A stretch of 64,000 nucleotides of DNA from Kordia jejudonensis (GTDB lineage Bacteria > Bacteroidota > Bacteroidia > Flavobacteriales > Flavobacteriaceae). Shown in pieces: positions 7,050-57,426 of the stretch (position 1 is its first letter; each line of letters begins with the position of its first letter). The DNA is taken from contig NZ_LBMG01000024.1 of the NCBI RefSeq assembly GCF_001005315.1, forward strand, positions 1 through 64,000, read 5' to 3'. The notes beneath the pieces are model-generated. The model had not been told where the DNA came from, made no database searches, and saw only the letters and a list, made by a program, of their open reading frames with translations. A program made the position numbers and the translations under genes.

Positions 7050-7054
7050 AACTT

Positions 7055-7113
7055 AGTTGCTAGTTTGTAGTTGTTGGTTGTTAGAAATTTCCAACAACAA
7101 ACAACAAACAACT
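7055..7113. repeat. Inverted heptamer array between nqrD and nqrE
   Basis: Two 23-base arms (7055-7077 and 7091-7113) are imperfect inverted repeats, matching at 18 of 23 positions, around a 13-base loop. Each arm is built from 7-base units: GTTGCTA, GTTTGTA, GTTGTTG on the left, and CCAACAA, CAAACAA, CAAACAA on the right. The RNA could form a hairpin between nqrD and nqrE. There is no T-run, so it does not look like a terminator. Confidence 0.7.
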
Positions 7114-7127
7114 AAAAACAAAAACAT

Positions 7128-25292: not shown

Positions 25293-25319
25293 ATATGTAT
25301 AACTTAAATTTTATTTTTC

Positions 25320-25347
25320 AATACTCAATACTCAATACTCAATACTT
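25320..25347. repeat. Heptamer array AATACTC x3 plus AATACTT
   Basis: Four in-phase 7-base units lie between the bidirectional terminator and the 3' end of the methyltransferase gene and overlap its stop codon by two bases. It is a member of the window-wide heptamer family. Confidence 0.75.
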
Positions 25348-29488: not shown

Positions 29489-29801
29489 TCGAGATTATTC
29501 TTTATTAAAAAACTAAAATAAGTGTATTTCATTACATAATAACAACCCAAACTCAAAAAACCATGCTTTTTTATCAAGGTTTATGAAATTCATAATGAAA
29601 GGTTGTTTTTTCTTATAAAATATCAAAAAAAGTATGTTAAGCAATCCTTAAAAAATTACATATAAAAAGGTAACGAAATCACTCTTTTTAAGAAGGCTTT
29701 AACACATTTTGATCTAAATAGTTAAGAATGTGTTATAAAAAGAAAATGCTTGCAACAATTTTTATTGGTTGTCGTCTCTTTAGTGTAATTAATAATTACA
29801 A
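29489..29801. other. AT-rich intergenic region, no gene seen
   Basis: The divergent region between gpmI and the ankyrin gene is 313 bases before the heptamer array. It is AT-rich with many A-runs. No convincing small gene or stem with T-run is seen. Promoters for both flanking genes should lie here. Confidence 0.6.
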
Positions 29802-29836
29802 AATCAACAATCATCAATTAAAAATCAACAACATTA
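29802..29836. repeat. Heptamer array touching the ankyrin-gene start codon
   Basis: In-phase units AATCAAC, AATCATC, AATTAAA, AATCAAC and AACATTA end at the A of the ATG. The array therefore occupies the ribosome-binding region of the next gene. Confidence 0.65.
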
Positions 29837-30225
29837 TGAGAAAAACAATTTTTATGATCGCTCTTATAGTAGGAGCTTCATTTACTACAGCTAATGCAAC
29901 AGAAAACGACACCAACACTGCAACCAACAAAGTAACCGTTACCAAAATTGTAAAGGTAAGTCCTTTTTGTGTGGCCATCGCAAAAGGCGATTTTGATACC
30001 GTAAAACGAATGATTCAGTTTGGAGAAAATGTAAATAAAAAGTCGAACGGAAAAACGCCACTAATGTACGCAGCTCGTTACAATAGAGTAAAAATTGCTT
30101 CTTTATTATTAGAAAACGGAGCGCGAGTTACACCAAAAGACGAAAATGGTCAGTCTGCTATTGATTATGCAGAATCTGCTCAGGCAAAAGAAGTAAAGAA
30201 AGTATTAATGAACGCATCAAAATAA
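29836..30225 (+). CDS. Exported ankyrin-repeat protein
   Basis: The open frame reaches upstream to 29728, but ATG 29836 gives a proper signal peptide (TIFMIALIVGASFTTANA), so a 129-aa protein is proposed. After a Thr/Asn-rich linker there are about two and a half ankyrin repeats: AIAKGDFDTVKRMIQFGENVN, NGKTPLMYAARYNRVKIASLLLENGARV and ENGQSAIDYAESAQAKEVKKVL. Ankyrin repeats bind protein partners; the partner is unknown. Likely periplasmic. A heptamer array lies immediately before the start. Confidence 0.85.
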   Translation: MRKTIFMIALIVGASFTTANATENDTNTATNKVTVTKIVKVSPFCVAIAKGDFDTVKRMIQFGENVNKKSNGKTPLMYAARYNRVKIASLLLENGARVTPKDENGQSAIDYAESAQAKEVKKVLMNASK

Positions 30226-30245
30226 ACGCAAGATTTCCTAAAAAG

Positions 30246-30378
30246 TAAAGAAGTTGTCTAAAAAGTAACAATTTCGTCAAACCTGATTCGGTTTCTCATA
30301 GCAGTTAAATAGTAGCGCTATGAGATGCTGGATCAAGTCTAAAATGACGGTTTTACAAGCTTTTCAGACAGCTTCTTT
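30246..30378. repeat. Long imperfect palindrome (REP/MITE-like)
   Basis: Outer arms 30246-30263 and 30359-30378 pair as AAGAAG, TGTCT, AAAAG against CTTTT, AGACA, CTTCTT. Inner arms CTCATAGC and GCTATGAG, plus GTCA and TGAC, continue the stem. The right inner part (TATGAGATGCTGGATCAAG) resembles the reverse complement of the element at 59721-59760. It ends in TTCTTTTT and lies between convergent genes, so it may also stop transcription. Confidence 0.6.
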
Positions 30379-30395
30379 TTATTTGCTATATTATT

Positions 30396-30569
30396 TTAAT
30401 TCTGTGGTGGCCATTTTTGACAAACATTGGCACCATAGCATAGTGTAATATTGATTGTTTCTACAGGACATCGATTTGTAAACTGTGGTCTTCCACCAGA
30501 AATAACACGTTGGTTTAACTGGCTAATTTCCTTTTTGTTCAATCGTAAATGAGTGGTCTTTTTTTTCAT
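30396..30569 (-). CDS. Short lanthipeptide-type precursor peptide, 57 aa
   Basis: This short frame encodes a clear member of the leader family: MKKKTTHLRLNKKEISQL, then a short stretch ending in Gly25-Gly26. The core (RPQFTNRCPVETINITLCYGANVCQKWPPQN) has three cysteines and several Thr. The ATG at 30569 is preceded on the minus strand by TATCTTTC (30597-30604), close to a -7 element. Leader similarity to the 13960 and 14261 peptides is strong while the core differs. No maturation gene is nearby. Final product unknown. Confidence 0.78.
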   Translation of the reverse strand: MKKKTTHLRLNKKEISQLNQRVISGGRPQFTNRCPVETINITLCYGANVCQKWPPQN

Positions 30570-30596
30570 GATTATTATTTTAAGTTATTTAAATAA

Positions 30597-30604
30597 GAAA
30601 GATA
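30597..30604 (-). promoter_or_regulatory. Possible -7 element TATCTTTC for the 57-aa precursor
   Basis: One mismatch to TAnnTTTG, 27 bases upstream of the ATG at 30569. Confidence 0.35.
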
Positions 30605-30682
30605 AATATTAAAATAAATTGAACAGTACTGTTTTACCATCAATTACAGTAGTGTTTTTAAGAATGAAAAATTACCAAATAC

Positions 30683-30793
30683 TTGAATAGTGATATAGTT
30701 TTTGAGTGTATGAGTTTAGTAGCTTACACTTCAATTAACAATAATAATTAATTTACCAAAGACCCAACACCCAAGACCCAAAACCCAACACCC
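30683..30793. repeat. 77-bp direct repeat copy 1 plus heptamer array
   Basis: The 77 bases 30683-30759 are repeated at 30848-30924 with four differences. Copy 1 is followed by five in-phase units: AAGACCC, AACACCC, AAGACCC, AAAACCC, AACACCC (30759-30793). Confidence 0.9.
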
Positions 30794-30847
30794 AAATGTA
30801 GAATTCAGAATTATGAAGTATCTAGAAATAACTTTGAACTTTAAACA

Positions 30848-30943
30848 TTGAATAGTGATGTAGTTTTTGAGTGTATGAGTTTAGTAGCTTACACTTTAAT
30901 TAAAAATAATAACTAATTTACCAACACCCAAGACCCAACACCC
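30848..30943. repeat. 77-bp direct repeat copy 2 plus heptamer array
   Basis: Second copy of the 77-bp sequence, ending in AACACCC, AAGACCC, AACACCC (30923-30943), just beyond the 3' end of the M48 peptidase gene. The region 30570-30949 holds no other gene that I can see. Confidence 0.9.
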
Positions 30944-30949
30944 AAAAAC

Positions 30950-42066: not shown

Positions 42067-42101
42067 AACAGTTGGCATATTTAGTTTAGTAAATAGGGAG
42101 A

Positions 42102-42131
42102 AACTCTCGTCGTAATGGCGAGAGTTTTTTT
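42102..42131 (+). terminator. Terminator after the subtilase gene
   Basis: AACTCTCG (42102-42109) and CGAGAGTT (42119-42126) form an 8-bp stem followed by a T-run. Confidence 0.92.
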
Positions 42132-42229
42132 ATTTCAATGATTTGGAAATAAAATCATTAAAATAATCTCATCGAAGGAAGAGATCTCTCAACTTTAAAA
42201 CTAGAAAAAGTAAAAGTTGTCAAATCCAG

Positions 42230-42339
42230 AAGTTATAAATGCTAAATTTTAAATAAAAAGTATTTTTTTAAGACCCAAGACCCAAGACCCAAGACCCAAG
42301 ACCCAAGACCCAAGACCCAAGACCCAACACCTAAAACCC
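42230..42339. repeat. AT-rich module plus heptamer array AAGACCC x8
   Basis: A module with AAATGCTAAATTTTAAAT and AAAAAGTATTTTT leads into eight perfect AAGACCC units (42270-42325), then AACACCT and AAAACCC in the same phase. The rest of the gap (42132-42368) has no gene. Confidence 0.93.
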
Positions 42340-42368
42340 AAAAGCGAAGCGCCCCAATAACCAAAAAT

Positions 42369-53246: not shown

Positions 53247-53774
53247 ATGATCTACATTGCCATCTTACGCGGAATCAACGTTTCAGGAAGTAAAAAACTC
53301 CCAATGGCAGAACTTCGCACATTGCTTACTAGCTTAGATTTTACAGAAGTACAAACGTATATTCAAAGTGGAAATGTAGTTTTTAAATCATCTGAAAAAA
53401 ATCAAGAAAAACTTGGAAGTCAAATTGCCGAAGCCATCAAAAAACAATACGATTATGATGTGCCAGTTTTGGTAAAAACGATTGAAGAATGGAAAACGGC
53501 AATTGCCAACAATCCATTTACAGAAACGGACATTTCTAAGCAAGGCATTACATTTTTGGCTACAATTCCAGAAGCAACAACCATTGAAATAGATAGTAAG
53601 GATGATCGATTCAAGATTATAAGTTCAGAAATATATTTAGACTGTCCAGGAGGTTTCGGTCGCACCAAGCTTACCAATAATTTTTTCGAACGTAAACTCA
53701 ACACACAAGCCACGACACGAAATTGGAAAACAATTTATAAATTATTACATCTCGCGGAAGCGATGGAAAATTGA
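53247..53774 (+). CDS. DUF1697 family protein
   Basis: A 175-aa protein starting at ATG 53247 (MIYIAILRGINVSGSKKLPM). The family signature is exact: LRGINVSG, FTEVQTYIQSGNVVF, and the C-terminal KLTNNFFERKLNTQATTRNWKTIYKLLHLA. DUF1697 proteins are cytoplasmic and of unknown function. It is followed by a 400-bp repeat-rich gap and not obviously linked to the downstream kynurenine genes. Confidence 0.94.
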   Translation: MIYIAILRGINVSGSKKLPMAELRTLLTSLDFTEVQTYIQSGNVVFKSSEKNQEKLGSQIAEAIKKQYDYDVPVLVKTIEEWKTAIANNPFTETDISKQGITFLATIPEATTIEIDSKDDRFKIISSEIYLDCPGGFGRTKLTNNFFERKLNTQATTRNWKTIYKLLHLAEAMEN

Positions 53775-53817
53775 AAATAGTAGAGAGAAAGTAGTATTGA
53801 GTATTGAGACTTTTTGA

Positions 53818-54000
53818 AACGTCACTTCGATTTTTGAAGGAAATCGTATCGAGAAGTACTGAGAAATTAAAATGTAAAAGTATTTTCGAATAAACAAAGA
53901 ACAAAGAACAAAGAACAAAGAACAAAGAACCAATAACGAATAACGAATAACGAATAACGAATAACGAATTTAAAATGTTAAATGATAAATGTTGAATTTT
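53818..54000. repeat. Composite repeat: core, AACAAAG x5, AATAACG x5, AT-rich module
   Basis: Order: GTCACTTCGA, GTATCGAGAAGTACT, AAATGTAAAAGTATTTTCGAA, five AACAAAG (53893-53927), AACC, five AATAACG (53932-53966), then AATTTAAAATGTT and TGTTGAATTTTAAAT. The same order is found at 56297-56520. The gap has no gene. Confidence 0.92.
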
Positions 54001-54041
54001 AAATACTAAAGATTTCATTTCAACAACTCAACAACTTAACA

Positions 54042-54167
54042 AAGACCCAAAACCCAAAACCAAAGAGAAAAGAACATAGAATAAAGAATGAATTTTGAAT
54101 GTTAAATGCTAAATTTTAAATAGAACTAATTTTTTTACCAAAACCCAAAACCCAAAACCGAAAACCC
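54042..54167. repeat. Heptamer arrays upstream of the RidA gene
   Basis: First array 54042-54076: AAGACCC, AAAACCC, AAAACCA, AAGAGAA, AAGAACA. Then the AT-rich module with TAAATGCTAAATTTTAAAT. Second array 54140-54167: AAAACCC, AAAACCC, AAAACCG, AAAACCC, ending 7 bases before the ATG at 54175. Confidence 0.88.
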
Positions 54168-54174
54168 ATAAATT

Positions 54175-54579
54175 ATGGAAGAAAAAAAAGTAACTCCAAG
54201 AGGCGCATATCCACATACAAAACGTGTGGGCGACTTTATATATGTATCAGGAACGAGTTCGCGACGACCAGATAACAGCATCGCAGGTGTAGATATCATT
54301 GACGAAATGGGAACGAAGCATTTGAACATTCGCACACAAACACGTGAAGTACTAAAAAACATTGACAAAAATTTGCAAAGTGTTGGCGCAAGTTTGGCTG
54401 ATGTGGTCGATGTAACTTCGTTTTTAGTCAACATGAACGACTTTGCAGGATACAACGAAGCCTATGGAGAATTCTTCGACAAAGCTACCGGACCAACGCG
54501 AACTACCGTTGCTGTACATCAATTGCCACATCCTGATTTAGTGATTGAAATCAAGGTAGTAGCGTATAAAAAACAATAA
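54175..54579 (+). CDS. RidA family protein, likely 2-aminomuconate deaminase
   Basis: A 134-aa protein of the YjgF/YER057c/UK114 superfamily. The conserved Arg109 in GPTRTTVAV and the [13 protein letters not shown] end are typical. The N-terminal [27 protein letters not shown] is close to the 2-aminomuconate deaminase subgroup. The neighbours (2-aminomuconic semialdehyde dehydrogenase 8 bp downstream, ACMS decarboxylase further on) support the reaction 2-aminomuconate to 4-oxalocrotonate with release of ammonia. It could also act as a general enamine deaminase. Its leader contains a heptamer array. Confidence 0.85.
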
Positions 54580-54587
54580 TTCAGCAA

Positions 54588-56033
54588 ATGAAAAAGATTC
54601 TAAACTATATCAACGGAAGTTATATTGCGCCAAAAAGCAACGAATGGATTGACAATTACAATCCTTCCAACGGAGAAGTCTACGGACAGATTCCAAATTC
54701 GTCTGCGGAAGATGTAGAAGCTGCCTATCAAGCTGCAAAAGCGGCTTATCCAAGTTGGTCAGCAACTACGCTAGATGAGCGAAGTCGTATTCTAAATAAC
54801 ATCGCATCTTTGATTGAAGAAAACTTGTCAGAATTGGCCCATGCAGAAGCATTAGACAATGGAAAACCGCTTAGTTTAGCAACACGAATTGACATTCCAA
54901 GAGCAACAAGCAACTTTAGATTCTTTTCACAAGCCATTACGCAGTTTTCAAGCGAAGCACATGAAAGTATTGGACTCAATGCGATGAATTTTACATTGCG
55001 ACAATCCATAGGAGTTGTCGGTTGTATTTCACCTTGGAATCTGCCATTGTATCTTTTTACTTGGAAAATTGCACCAGCCTTAGCAACTGGAAATACAGTT
55101 GTGGCAAAACCAAGTGAAGTGACACCAATGACCGCGTATCTATTAGGCGAAATTTGCACGAAAGCAGGTTTGCCAAAAGGTGTGTTAAACATTGTACACG
55201 GATTGGGACATACCACAGGACAAGCCATTACAGAACATCCCAACATCAAAGCAATCTCTTTTACAGGCGGAACGGCTACAGGCGCGCATATAGCAAGAAC
55301 GGCGGCACCTATGTTTAAAAAGCTTTCGCTAGAATTGGGAGGAAAAAACCCGAATATCATCTTTGCCGATTGCGATTATGATGAAATGTTGAAAACTACA
55401 GTACGATCATCCTTTGCAAATCAAGGACAAATCTGTTTATGTGGTTCACGAATATTTGTAGAAAGAAGCATCTATGAAAAATTCAAAATAGACTTTGTAG
55501 CACGTGTAAAACAACTCAAAGTAGGAAATCCGTTTGATGAAACAACAAAAGTAGGCGCGTTGGTTTCAAAACCGCATTTAGAAAAAGTAAAATCATACAT
55601 ACAAATTGCAAAAGACGAAGGTGGCACCATTTTATGTGGAGGAAATGATGTTGTTGTAGAAGGATTCGAAAACGGATACTACTTAGCGCCAACTGTTATA
55701 GAAGTGCCAACCGATCAATGTCGCGTGAATCAAGAAGAAATATTTGGACCTGTTGTGACGATGATGCCGTTTGATACGGAAGAAGAAGTCTTAGCCATGG
55801 CAAATGGCGTCCGTTATGGATTATCGGCAACATTGTGGACAAACAATCTCAATCGCACCATGCGAATGTCTAAACAATTGGAAGCAGGAATTGTTTGGGT
55901 AAACACATGGCTTATGCGTGATTTGCGTACACCTTTCGGTGGCATGAAAAACTCTGGCGTCGGTCGCGAAGGTGGCATGGAAGCCTTACGTTTCTTTACT
56001 GAACCGAAAAATATTTGTATCAAATACTCTTGA
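54588..56033 (+). CDS. Aldehyde dehydrogenase, probable 2-aminomuconic-6-semialdehyde dehydrogenase
   Basis: A 481-aa NAD-dependent dehydrogenase of the ALDH superfamily, most like the ALDH8/AmnC group. Catalytic Cys283 is in NQGQICLCGSR and the general base Glu249 in LELGGKNPNI. FTGGTATGAHI gives the cofactor loop. Conserved ISPWNLPLYLFTWKIAPALATGNTVVAKPSE is present. Neighbours (RidA-type deaminase, ACMSD) identify the likely substrate, 2-aminomuconic semialdehyde, although other ALDH substrates cannot be ruled out. It is coupled to the RidA gene by an 8-bp gap. Confidence 0.92.
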   Translation: MKKILNYINGSYIAPKSNEWIDNYNPSNGEVYGQIPNSSAEDVEAAYQAAKAAYPSWSATTLDERSRILNNIASLIEENLSELAHAEALDNGKPLSLATRIDIPRATSNFRFFSQAITQFSSEAHESIGLNAMNFTLRQSIGVVGCISPWNLPLYLFTWKIAPALATGNTVVAKPSEVTPMTAYLLGEICTKAGLPKGVLNIVHGLGHTTGQAITEHPNIKAISFTGGTATGAHIARTAAPMFKKLSLELGGKNPNIIFADCDYDEMLKTTVRSSFANQGQICLCGSRIFVERSIYEKFKIDFVARVKQLKVGNPFDETTKVGALVSKPHLEKVKSYIQIAKDEGGTILCGGNDVVVEGFENGYYLAPTVIEVPTDQCRVNQEEIFGPVVTMMPFDTEEEVLAMANGVRYGLSATLWTNNLNRTMRMSKQLEAGIVWVNTWLMRDLRTPFGGMKNSGVGREGGMEALRFFTEPKNICIKYS

Positions 56034-56040
56034 TGTTAAA

Positions 56041-56290
56041 TTATGAATGTTGTATGCTGAATTTTAAATAAAAAGATAATTTAGAATCTAGAAATTAGAA
56101 CAAAAAGCCAAGAGCCAAGACCCAAGACCAAAGACCAAAGACCCAAAACCCAAAACCCAAGACCAAAGACCAAAGAGCTAATACCGAATACCGAATACCG
56201 AATACCGAATACCGAAATTAAAATGTTAAATGATAAATGTTGAATTTTAAATTGAAAAGTATTTACAAAACCTAAAGTGTACAATCAATT
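56041..56290. repeat. Heptamer array of 15 in-phase units with changing sequence
   Basis: The array 56110-56214 has 15 consecutive 7-base units without slippage: AAGAGCC, AAGACCC, AAGACCA, AAGACCA, AAGACCC, AAAACCC, AAAACCC, AAGACCA, AAGACCA, AAGAGCT, then five AATACCG. AT-rich modules (GCTGAATTTTAAATAAAAAG; TGTTGAATTTTAAATTG) flank it on both sides. No gene is seen. Confidence 0.93.
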
Positions 56291-56296
56291 TAAATA

Positions 56297-56583
56297 CGTC
56301 ACTTCGAGTGAAATTTTAGAATAAAATTATGTATCGAGAAGTACTTTGAAAGTATAAATGTAAAAGTATTTCCGAATAAACAAAGAACAAAGAACAAAGA
56401 ACAAAGAACAAAGAACAAAGAACAAAGAACAAAGACCCAAGACCCAAGACCAAAGAGCTAATACCGAATAACGAATAACGAATAACGAATTTAAAATGAT
56501 AAATGTTAAATGTTGAATTTTAAATGTAAAAGTATTTTCGAATAACCCAAAACCCAAAACCCAAGAACAAAGACCCAAGAGCG
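56297..56583. repeat. Composite repeat: core, AACAAAG x8, mixed units, AATAACG x3, module, second array
   Basis: Order: GTCACTTCGAGTG, TGTATCGAGAAGTACTTTGAA, AAATGTAAAAGTATTTCCGAA, eight AACAAAG (56379-56434), ACCC, then in phase AAGACCC, AAGACCA, AAGAGCT, AATACCG and three AATAACG (56439-56487), the AT-rich module, and a second array (56549-56583: AAAACCC, AAAACCC, AAGAACA, AAGACCC, AAGAGCG). The 604-bp gap 56034-56637 has no gene. Confidence 0.93.
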
Positions 56584-56637
56584 ACCTAAAACCAAAACCA
56601 AATACTCACTACTAACATCTCAATACTAAATTAAACA

Positions 56638-57426
56638 ATGAACCTAAACTTACAACATAAAAACGCCCTCGTTTGTGGAAGCACACAAGGAATCGGAAAA
56701 GCAACTGCAATTCAATTGGCAATTCTTGGCGCAAATATAACCTTAGCCGCTAGAAACGAAGAAAAACTACAAAATGTGCTTGACGAATTAGATACTTCCA
56801 AAGGACAGAAACACAATTATATCGTGGCAGATTTTCAAAATCCAACGGCTTTGGAAGAAAAAATAACAGCTTTTGTTTCAGAACATCATGCATTTCATAT
56901 TTTAATAAACAATACGGGCGGACCTGCTGGTGGACCCGTATATGCAGCAAAAATTGAAGAATTTGAGCGTGCTTTTACACAACACTTAAAATGCAATCAC
57001 ATCTTAGCGCAAAGTGTTGTAGAAGGAATGAAAGAAGCGGGTTATGGGCGAATTATAAATATCATTTCTACTTCGGTAAAACAACCGTTAGATGGTTTGG
57101 GCGTTTCCAATACCATTCGTGGAGCAGTGGCAAATTGGTCAAAAACTTTGGCAAATGAGTTGGGACAATTTGGAATAACTGTCAACAATGTTTTACCAGG
57201 CGCAACTGCTACGGAACGTTTGACAGAAATCATAAAAAACAAAGCGGCAAAAACAGGAAAATCAGAAGATGAGGTAAGTACAGCGATGAAAAATGCGGTG
57301 CCAGCCAAACGATTTGCACAACCTGAAGAAGTTGCAAATGCGATTGCATTTTTAGCAAGTGAAGCAGCATCTTATATTAATGGAATTAATGTCCCTGTAG
57401 ATGGTGGACGAACGAAGTCGTTGTAG
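56638..57426 (+). CDS. SDR family oxidoreductase lacking the YxxxK motif
   Basis: A 262-aa classical-size short-chain dehydrogenase with dinucleotide motif VCGSTQGIGKATAI (TGxxxGxG variant) and the NNTGGPAGGPV loop. The active-site area reads ISTSVKQPLDG then GVSNTIRGAVANWSK, where Ser157 and Arg161 occupy the usual Tyr and Lys of YxxxK. This is a known divergent SDR subgroup, so activity may use other residues. The C-terminal FLASEAASYINGINVPVDGGRTKSL is complete. It sits between dehydrogenase and ACMSD genes, suggesting a role in kynurenine-derived 2-oxo acid metabolism; not proved. Confidence 0.88.
   Translation: MNLNLQHKNALVCGSTQGIGKATAIQLAILGANITLAARNEEKLQNVLDELDTSKGQKHNYIVADFQNPTALEEKITAFVSEHHAFHILINNTGGPAGGPVYAAKIEEFERAFTQHLKCNHILAQSVVEGMKEAGYGRIINIISTSVKQPLDGLGVSNTIRGAVANWSKTLANELGQFGITVNNVLPGATATERLTEIIKNKAAKTGKSEDEVSTAMKNAVPAKRFAQPEEVANAIAFLASEAASYINGINVPVDGGRTKSL

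Follow-up and report, generated by a model that had tools for sequence, protein, structure and literature searches.

Here we describe an array of tandem heptamers at positions 56110..56214 of a 64,000-nucleotide stretch of the Kordia jejudonensis genome (referred to here as the window; it lies on contig C135 of a draft assembly of 5.36 Mb), together with related arrays in this and other Kordia genomes. The array sits between an aldehyde dehydrogenase gene (54588-56033), which has 90-96% identity in eight Kordia records, and a short-chain dehydrogenase gene (56638-57426). The first-pass annotation reported fifteen consecutive 7-base units without an indel, and reading the array unit by unit bore this out: it consists of 15 in-phase heptamers, every unit starting with AA, with zero indels, in the order AAGAGCC, AAGACCC, AAGACCA x2, AAGACCC, AAAACCC x2, AAGACCA x2, AAGAGCT and AATACCG x5. 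Tandem Repeats Finder (TRF) scored overlapping or adjoining parts of it at 89, 118 and 74. The array is A/C-rich on the plus strand and G/T-rich on the minus strand; strands given for arrays below are those of the G/T-rich side. Our data indicate that arrays of the main unit types are polar relative to the inferred replication fork, and this polarity, which is invisible from the window alone, is the new observation of this analysis.

The 604-bp gap between the two dehydrogenase genes is largely 7-periodic, in the order array, block B, palindrome-like piece, array, block B, array. Block B, a degenerate 7-periodic block of AAATGTT type, follows the array at 56221..56252 (minus), with similar blocks at 53973 and 56494. 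The second array (56379..56490, minus) repeats the cassette order of the first with an AACAAAG run, ACCCAAG, AGCTAAT and an AACGAAT run. It is followed by a block B copy (56494..56537, minus), in which 56521-56537 matches the 17-bp edge AAATACTTTTACATTTA on the minus strand, and by a third array, of ACCCAAG units (56545..56580, minus). There is also a further cassette copy (AACAAAG x5 then AACGAAT x5; 53887..53969, minus) and a block B copy (53973..54004, minus), and a CCAAAAC array (54138..54168, minus) ends 6 bp short of a predicted start codon. Arrays of AAGACCC x8 with variants (42270..42341, minus) and of ACCCAA type (30755..30796, minus) each lie between convergent genes, and a CCAACAC array (30921..30945, minus) lies 4 bp from the end of a minus-strand gene.

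Among the arrays that the first-pass annotation assigned to one vocabulary, those at 30759, 30923, 42270, 53893, 54140, 56379 and 56549 were recovered by TRF as A/C-rich arrays of period 7 or 14, and that at 54042 was visible in the lag-7 scan alone. The array at 25320 is a true array, but its unit, TCAATAC (25318..25346, minus), belongs to the AGTATTG family, which behaves differently and has mostly the opposite polarity in complete genomes. The entry at 29802 was not counted, as it appeared only in the loose lag-7 scan (29783-29834), gave no TRF call at score 40 and lies within a predicted gene (29728-30225). Across the window, scanned at lags 2-20, identity of at least 80% over 35 bp occurred only at lags 7 and 14. 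A search of 53700-56700 of the window against Rfam gave zero matches at gathering score.

We found that 7 of the 14 neighbouring units of the array at 56110..56214 are identical, compared with 2.4 in shuffles (p 0.001). The corresponding counts are 8/10 at 53893 (p 0.002), 9/14 at 56386 (p <0.0001) and 7/10 at 42270 (p 0.02). The expectation in the first-pass annotation that ordinary slippage gives uniform units does not apply here, as slippage of whole units acting locally predicts runs such as these. A five-unit, 35-bp higher-order repeat is present as well, and whole-unit duplication of variants gives such patterns. Three cassettes (53860-54020, 56060-56270 and 56340-56540) have a common order of A/C heptamers, an AATAACG or AATACCG run, and block B, with 82-92% identity in long BLAST alignments. 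In their multiple alignment, gap lengths in the heptamer part are multiples of 7. Common order and gaps in multiples of 7 support block copying. The exact junction AAAGAGCTAATACCGAATA is common to two arrays and absent from 286 of 288 loci, the other 2 being pieces of the same place; with the shared cassette order, it supports the earlier suggestion of block exchange among arrays. Slippage of whole units, combined with copying of blocks, fits both the runs and the common mosaic order of the cassettes.

We compared orthologous intergenic sites in other Kordia. Some sites lack an array in one species or another, and not all flanking genes could be paired. In one complete genome (G004), the orthologue of 42067-42368 has an 8-bp AACAAACT array in place of the AAGACCC array of the window. 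A terminator-like hairpin with a T run at about 42100-42140 is conserved in another complete genome (G009) and, in a modified form, in G004, while the neighbouring array is replaced. At the orthologue of 56034-56637, K. algicida contains 7-bp AATAGCG and AAAACCC arrays together with a 9-bp GACCCAAAA array, G004 has an array of the 8-bp unit CGAATAAA, and G001 has AACCAGT units. The closest genome by aldehyde dehydrogenase (G008, 96%) has an 80-bp gap without arrays there, and in total 0 GTTATTC doublets and 1 AAGACCC doublet. At the orthologue of 30226-30949, the units are AAGACCA in G004 and ACAAAAA in K. algicida. Where arrays recur at orthologous sites, the A/C side is on the same strand while unit and period differ. 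From these comparisons, period is not the conserved feature. The earlier proposal of selection for period is therefore not supported, given the 8- and 9-bp units at orthologous sites and the 8-bp arrays in the same genome.

The arrays are not confined to the window, a possibility the first-pass annotation had raised: the doubled AAGACCC, AAGACCCAAGACCC, has 56 + 52 = 108 matches in the draft genome (overlapping matches, not separate arrays), whereas its reversed pattern has 0 + 0, an excess beyond chance. We next counted intergenic arrays by period, with a TRF score of at least 50 and genes called by a crude longest-first script for open reading frames (ORFs; ATG start, at least 80 amino acids). 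In 864 kb of the draft genome, periods 5, 6, 7, 8 and 9 gave 1, 0, 23, 9 and 1 arrays, period 7 covering 2214 bases and period 8 covering 1295. Since this sample came partly from contigs known to hold AAGACCC, the figures from 400 kb of evenly spaced stretches of K. algicida are fairer: 0, 0, 7, 2 and 0. Among 56 loci, mostly from other Flavobacteriaceae, period 7 was seen in 7 arrays and period 6 in 2, and periods 5, 8 and 9 were absent. Period 7 was thus the commonest in the sampled stretches, as the first-pass annotation had anticipated, and its arrays were intergenic (23, 7 and 7 in the three samples) versus 0 in genes. Period 7 is not peculiar to Kordia, since other Flavobacteriaceae contain period-7 arrays of other units, and the Kordia arrays are members of the bacterial intergenic heptanucleotide repeats.

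Exact AAGACCC doublets were found, among 60 relatives, in Kordia only (6 genomes, including this one), while TTGGGTN triplets occur in 13 of the 199 family genomes searched, 11 of these outside Kordia. Kordia species seem to differ in the unit families that they favour. In the complete genome G003, AGTATTG doublets are frequent (72 matches, 49 places), AAGACCC has 3 matches and TTGGGTN has 8. The draft genome also contains very long arrays, namely GTTTAGTT x63 (L059:7882-8386), TCTTTAC x75 beside ACGAATCA x58 (L232:7418-8435) and CATCTAA x80 (L238:17659-18220). A second repeat class, of 16-bp arrays with AGCAAAG/AGCGAAGCG words, is found near gene ends (L057:11544, L070:10815, L205:12881 and L206:17216); arrays of periods 8 and 16, pooled, are not clearly polar (15/27).

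We counted array polarity in three single-contig Kordia genomes, G009, G004 and G003. The parS clusters lie at 3.719-3.722, 3.442-3.445 and 1.263-1.266 Mb, respectively. Since dnaA is far from the parS cluster in all three genomes, dnaA was set aside and parS was assumed to mark the origin. The sign of GC skew agrees over the sampled stretches and is noisy from stretch to stretch. At 107 of 112 places (49/53 in G009, 41/42 in G004 and 17/17 in G003), the nascent lagging strand was found to be the G/T strand of the TTGGGTN, GTTATTC, CTTTGTT and TTTGTTG arrays, places at most 1 kb apart being merged. Of the 5 exceptions, 2 are mixed and 3 are opposed, one of the latter about 23 kb from the computed antipode. 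Going round the chromosome, the arrays change strand at two points, one at parS and the other close to the antipode. In G009, the new sign is already present 3.5 kb past the assumed origin, with the nearest array on the other side 185 kb away, and the second switch falls between 2.463 and 2.595 Mb from the origin (antipode 2.517). Our data thus indicate a near-complete replichore polarity of four unit families.

These counts are to be read with their sampling. The four families were chosen for high frequency, and array places were transcribed by hand from match listings. TTTGTTG arrays (36/38 over three genomes) were counted last, after the word GTTGTTT had given 19:0 in arrays of the sampled stretches. 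In G003, 4 of 13 GTTATTC matches were read through their loci, and the genome length was taken as 5.50 Mb in the word and bin, AGTATTG and edge counts and as 5,482,391 in the gene-direction and 112-place counts. In the draft genome, 14/14 further places on eight contigs match the first place of their contig, among the matches listed. In G009 and G004, the right arm is collinear with the window, whose array sign is the one expected there.

We asked whether gene direction could produce the same pattern. Sorted by neighbouring gene pair, a small sample of polar arrays conformed to replication polarity in 4/4 cases between two lagging-strand genes, 7/7 between convergent genes and 14/15 between two leading-strand genes. 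An earlier count with a wider unit list gave 1/2, 6/6 and 9/9, respectively, and 3/4 for divergent pairs. In these few cases, array orientation tracked the fork and not the direction of the genes. We also considered a rule by which the G/T-rich side points away from genes at both starts and stops, which proved weak over arrays in general: it held for 34/53 arrays in the draft genome (p 0.053), 10/16 in K. algicida and 6/9 elsewhere. At array-bearing flanks, G exceeded C outward at 13/15 stops and 5/5 starts; array-free flanks lean the same way at starts (121 vs 52), but not at stops (74 vs 94). Polar arrays followed the outward rule in 19/30 cases overall and in 11/13 within 50 bp of a gene. 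Replication polarity explains more than the outward rule.

We reasoned that, if a word were recognised, its sequence should be conserved and single copies of it should also be polar. In a test of seven words outside arrays, most were split nearly evenly: intergenic lagging:leading counts were 10:9 for GTTATTC, 27:27 for GGGTTTT and 67:57 for GTTGTTT, and within genes TTGGGT showed a weak leading lean (202:245). In the sampled stretches of G009 and G004, G is in slight excess on the leading strand, so that the G/T side of the arrays opposes the ordinary G-C skew. Places of three unit families, in five equal bins from the origin, numbered 6, 10, 7, 5 and 10 in G009 and 9, 7, 8, 9 and 3 in G004, with no rise in density towards the terminus in either genome.

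Several observations weigh against a general, replication-linked rule. Some intergenic single words lean as the arrays do (TTGGGT 48:33, TTTGTTC 48:31 and GGGTCTT 8:1). Divergent gene pairs conform in only 1/4 cases, and the lagging-pair exception in the wider unit list is a GTGTGTT array at 1.24 Mb of G009. AGTATTG arrays are mostly opposite, being leading at 55/72 places (16/18 in G009, 4/5 in G004 and 35/49 in G003); the rule is therefore unit-specific, and G/T content alone, which fails here, was ruled out as the cause. An unbiased count, made with TRF on samples of G009 (880 kb) and G004 (315 kb), placed the G/T side of arrays with periods 7 and 14 on the lagging strand in 29/42 cases (p 0.02), or 20/42 when the strand was assigned by G over C, and gave 15/27 for periods 8 and 16 and 28/51 for other periods. 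Since this count is weaker, the strong rule is confined to certain unit families. When both strands of five units were folded with DNA parameters, the two strands of the four polar units did not clearly differ, and strand structure was rejected as the cause. With RNA parameters, the G/T strand of the array at 56110..56214 reached -13.6 kcal/mol versus 0 for the other strand, which was not better than shuffles. Lastly, 0/5 adjacent units are identical in the array at 30759.

Taken together, the strong polarity of arrays, the weak polarity of most single words and the drift of unit and period favour replication-linked gain and loss. We consider it probable, with real room for doubt, that DNA replication creates the arrays and goes on reshaping them through fork-dependent slippage or realignment. 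At the fork, slippage or misaligned re-annealing would add whole units to short A/C-rich intergenic stretches or remove them, so that lengths would change in multiples of the unit. New unit types would arise from point mutation and then spread locally as runs, and larger cassettes would be copied between neighbouring arrays. If growth and shrinkage differ with the direction of the fork, arrays built from the main types of unit would survive where the G/T-rich strand is synthesised as the lagging strand and the A/C-rich strand serves as its template. Here we infer the fork direction from parS, slippage or realignment as the step, and the lagging strand as the place where the bias arises. Genes may be spared because coding sequence is intolerant of such changes, and any reason for the preference for 7 would be a similar supposition. 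By inspection, the spacing in TTGGGTN units alone fits a G-quadruplex motif, and G-quadruplexes could matter for these units only.

Selection for direction could produce a similar picture. A translocase, recombination or segregation protein might read the G/T-rich strand along the origin-to-terminus axis with a loose sequence demand, as FtsK reads the FtsK orienting polar sequences (KOPS), and this we regard as unlikely. The related proposal, that sequence-tolerant tandem arrays mark fork direction through a G/T-over-A/C asymmetry read by a replication, segregation or recombination protein while the unit drifts, strikes us as equally improbable. Selected signals of this kind are consistent with the near-complete polarity, with the sign changes at parS and near the antipode, and with the several orthologous sites that keep array polarity despite changed units. 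They fit poorly with the slight polarity of most single words, the flat density towards the terminus, the variation of units between species and the genome G008, which lacks an array at the 56034-56637 site and nearly lacks the doublets. A role in RNA or transcription, in which the arrays serve as A/C-rich leaders free of structure, load Rho or terminate transcription, with gene direction setting their orientation, seems to us more doubtful still. Many arrays abut genes, no structure is predicted for array RNA in the A/C sense, and the Xanthomonas and Nostoc heptamers are described as lying near ORFs in a fixed sense (PMC4692102), as are 11/13 polar arrays within 50 bp of a gene here. However, arrays between two lagging-strand genes keep replication polarity (4/4, or 1/2 with the wider unit list), so that the sense there is G/U-rich, and convergent pairs follow it as well. 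Moreover, leading-strand genes make up 54% in G009 (400/737) and 59% in G004 (168/283) by a crude ORF count, a share too small to yield 107/112.

A mobile origin is about as improbable as an RNA role. Composites of block B and array would be copies of a small mobile or copying element with fork-dependent insertion, like single-strand transposons, and the heptamers would be its internal repeats. Indeed, the 17-bp block B edge recurs, often beside arrays, and is polar at 32/39 places in the three genomes; the three window cassettes have a common order; and GIY-YIG genes flanked by palindromes occur at two of these intergenic sites in some other species. Yet the three-cassette alignment revealed no fixed ends, although no systematic search for them was made, several arrays have no adjacent block B, and periods 8 and 9 occur at the same sites. 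Replication-linked gain and loss thus remains the explanation we favour.

Other features of the window and its orthologues deserve mention. A palindrome related to the TCGAGCGCAGTCGAG type lies at about 56297-56352 in the window species. At the orthologues of 53775-54174 and 56034-56637 (L241, L254, L250, L124, L125 and L081), a small gene encodes a single GIY-YIG domain (Pfam), and TCGAGCGCAGTCGAG-type palindromes surround it at both sites in some other Kordia. No GIY-YIG gene was found at 53775-54174 or 56034-56637 in the window species. Palindrome and GIY-YIG nuclease possibly form a mobile family. A hairpin-like intergenic region with 7-periodic arms, GT-rich on the left and AC-rich on the right, lies at 7050..7127 (plus). 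Its length is nearly constant in five Kordia (78-82 bp), its sequence differs among species, and the arms are complementary by eye. Folded as RNA, the window copy alone was analysed and gave a z-score of -3.6.

The dominance of heptamers in bacterial repeat arrays has so far been left at a proposal of polymerase slippage. If orientation records fork direction, this proposal can be put to the test by comparing how arrays grow and shrink in either orientation. With a mutational cause, Kordia would preserve a natural archive of strand-specific errors made during replication, and the polarity of arrays could be of use in locating the origin and terminus of genomes still in draft. If the arrays are selected, they would represent a new kind of direction signal.

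Heterocystous cyanobacteria contain heptanucleotide arrays, the STRR sequences, of unknown role. The first-pass annotation considered the Kordia arrays an independent flavobacterial counterpart, a fair analogy that likens them by description and not by sequence. Heptamer arrays were already in the literature, however, among them arrays of A. sublithincola, a species of Aequorivita. The portion of MacGregor 2015 that we consulted (PMC4679880) reports them in Gramella forsetii, A. sublithincola and Elizabethkingia. The same source describes the TAACTGA repeats of Beggiatoaceae, cyanobacteria and some Bacteroidetes, which are intergenic heptamer arrays too, and other heptamers in the same intergenic regions of Flavobacteria. 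The Kordia loci differ in having no TAACTGA doublet (0 in the window with up to one mismatch and 0 exact in 332 loci), and replication polarity does not feature in that portion of the source. Slippage, proposed here for Kordia, is also discussed as the origin of the tandem repeats of archaeal Borg elements in the sections of PMC9879509 consulted. Those repeats are near-perfect, mostly unique in sequence and 43-65% within ORFs, whereas the period-7 arrays of Kordia are mosaic, have units common to several places and are intergenic in every census sample.

A strand bias set by replication direction is found in architecture-imparting sequences and KOPS (PMC5993296), as in the Kordia arrays. Those are single octamers, leading-strand-enriched and rising in frequency to the terminus. 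Kordia differs, in that its single words are near even or lagging-leaning between genes and its array places do not rise towards the terminus. In mainly open-access literature, we found no title or abstract on heptamer arrays with leading/lagging or replichore polarity. The closest likeness is to the GGGNATC and GGGGA(C/T)T heptamers of Xanthomonas and Nostoc (Rehm et al. 2015, PMC4692102, from the excerpts consulted). Like the Kordia arrays, these are dispersed 7-bp intergenic tandem repeats, and they occupy mostly the same places in relatives with variable length and sequence. They lie near ORFs with the G-rich strand pointing away from the gene, a sense seen here in 11/13 polar arrays within 50 bp of a gene and in 19/30 overall. 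Kordia differs in that GTTATTC, CTTTGTT and TTTGTTG contain no G-tracts and the period changes at orthologous sites. In those excerpts, the Xanthomonas heptamers are reported to have no leading/lagging preference, while the four Kordia unit families are almost fully polar.
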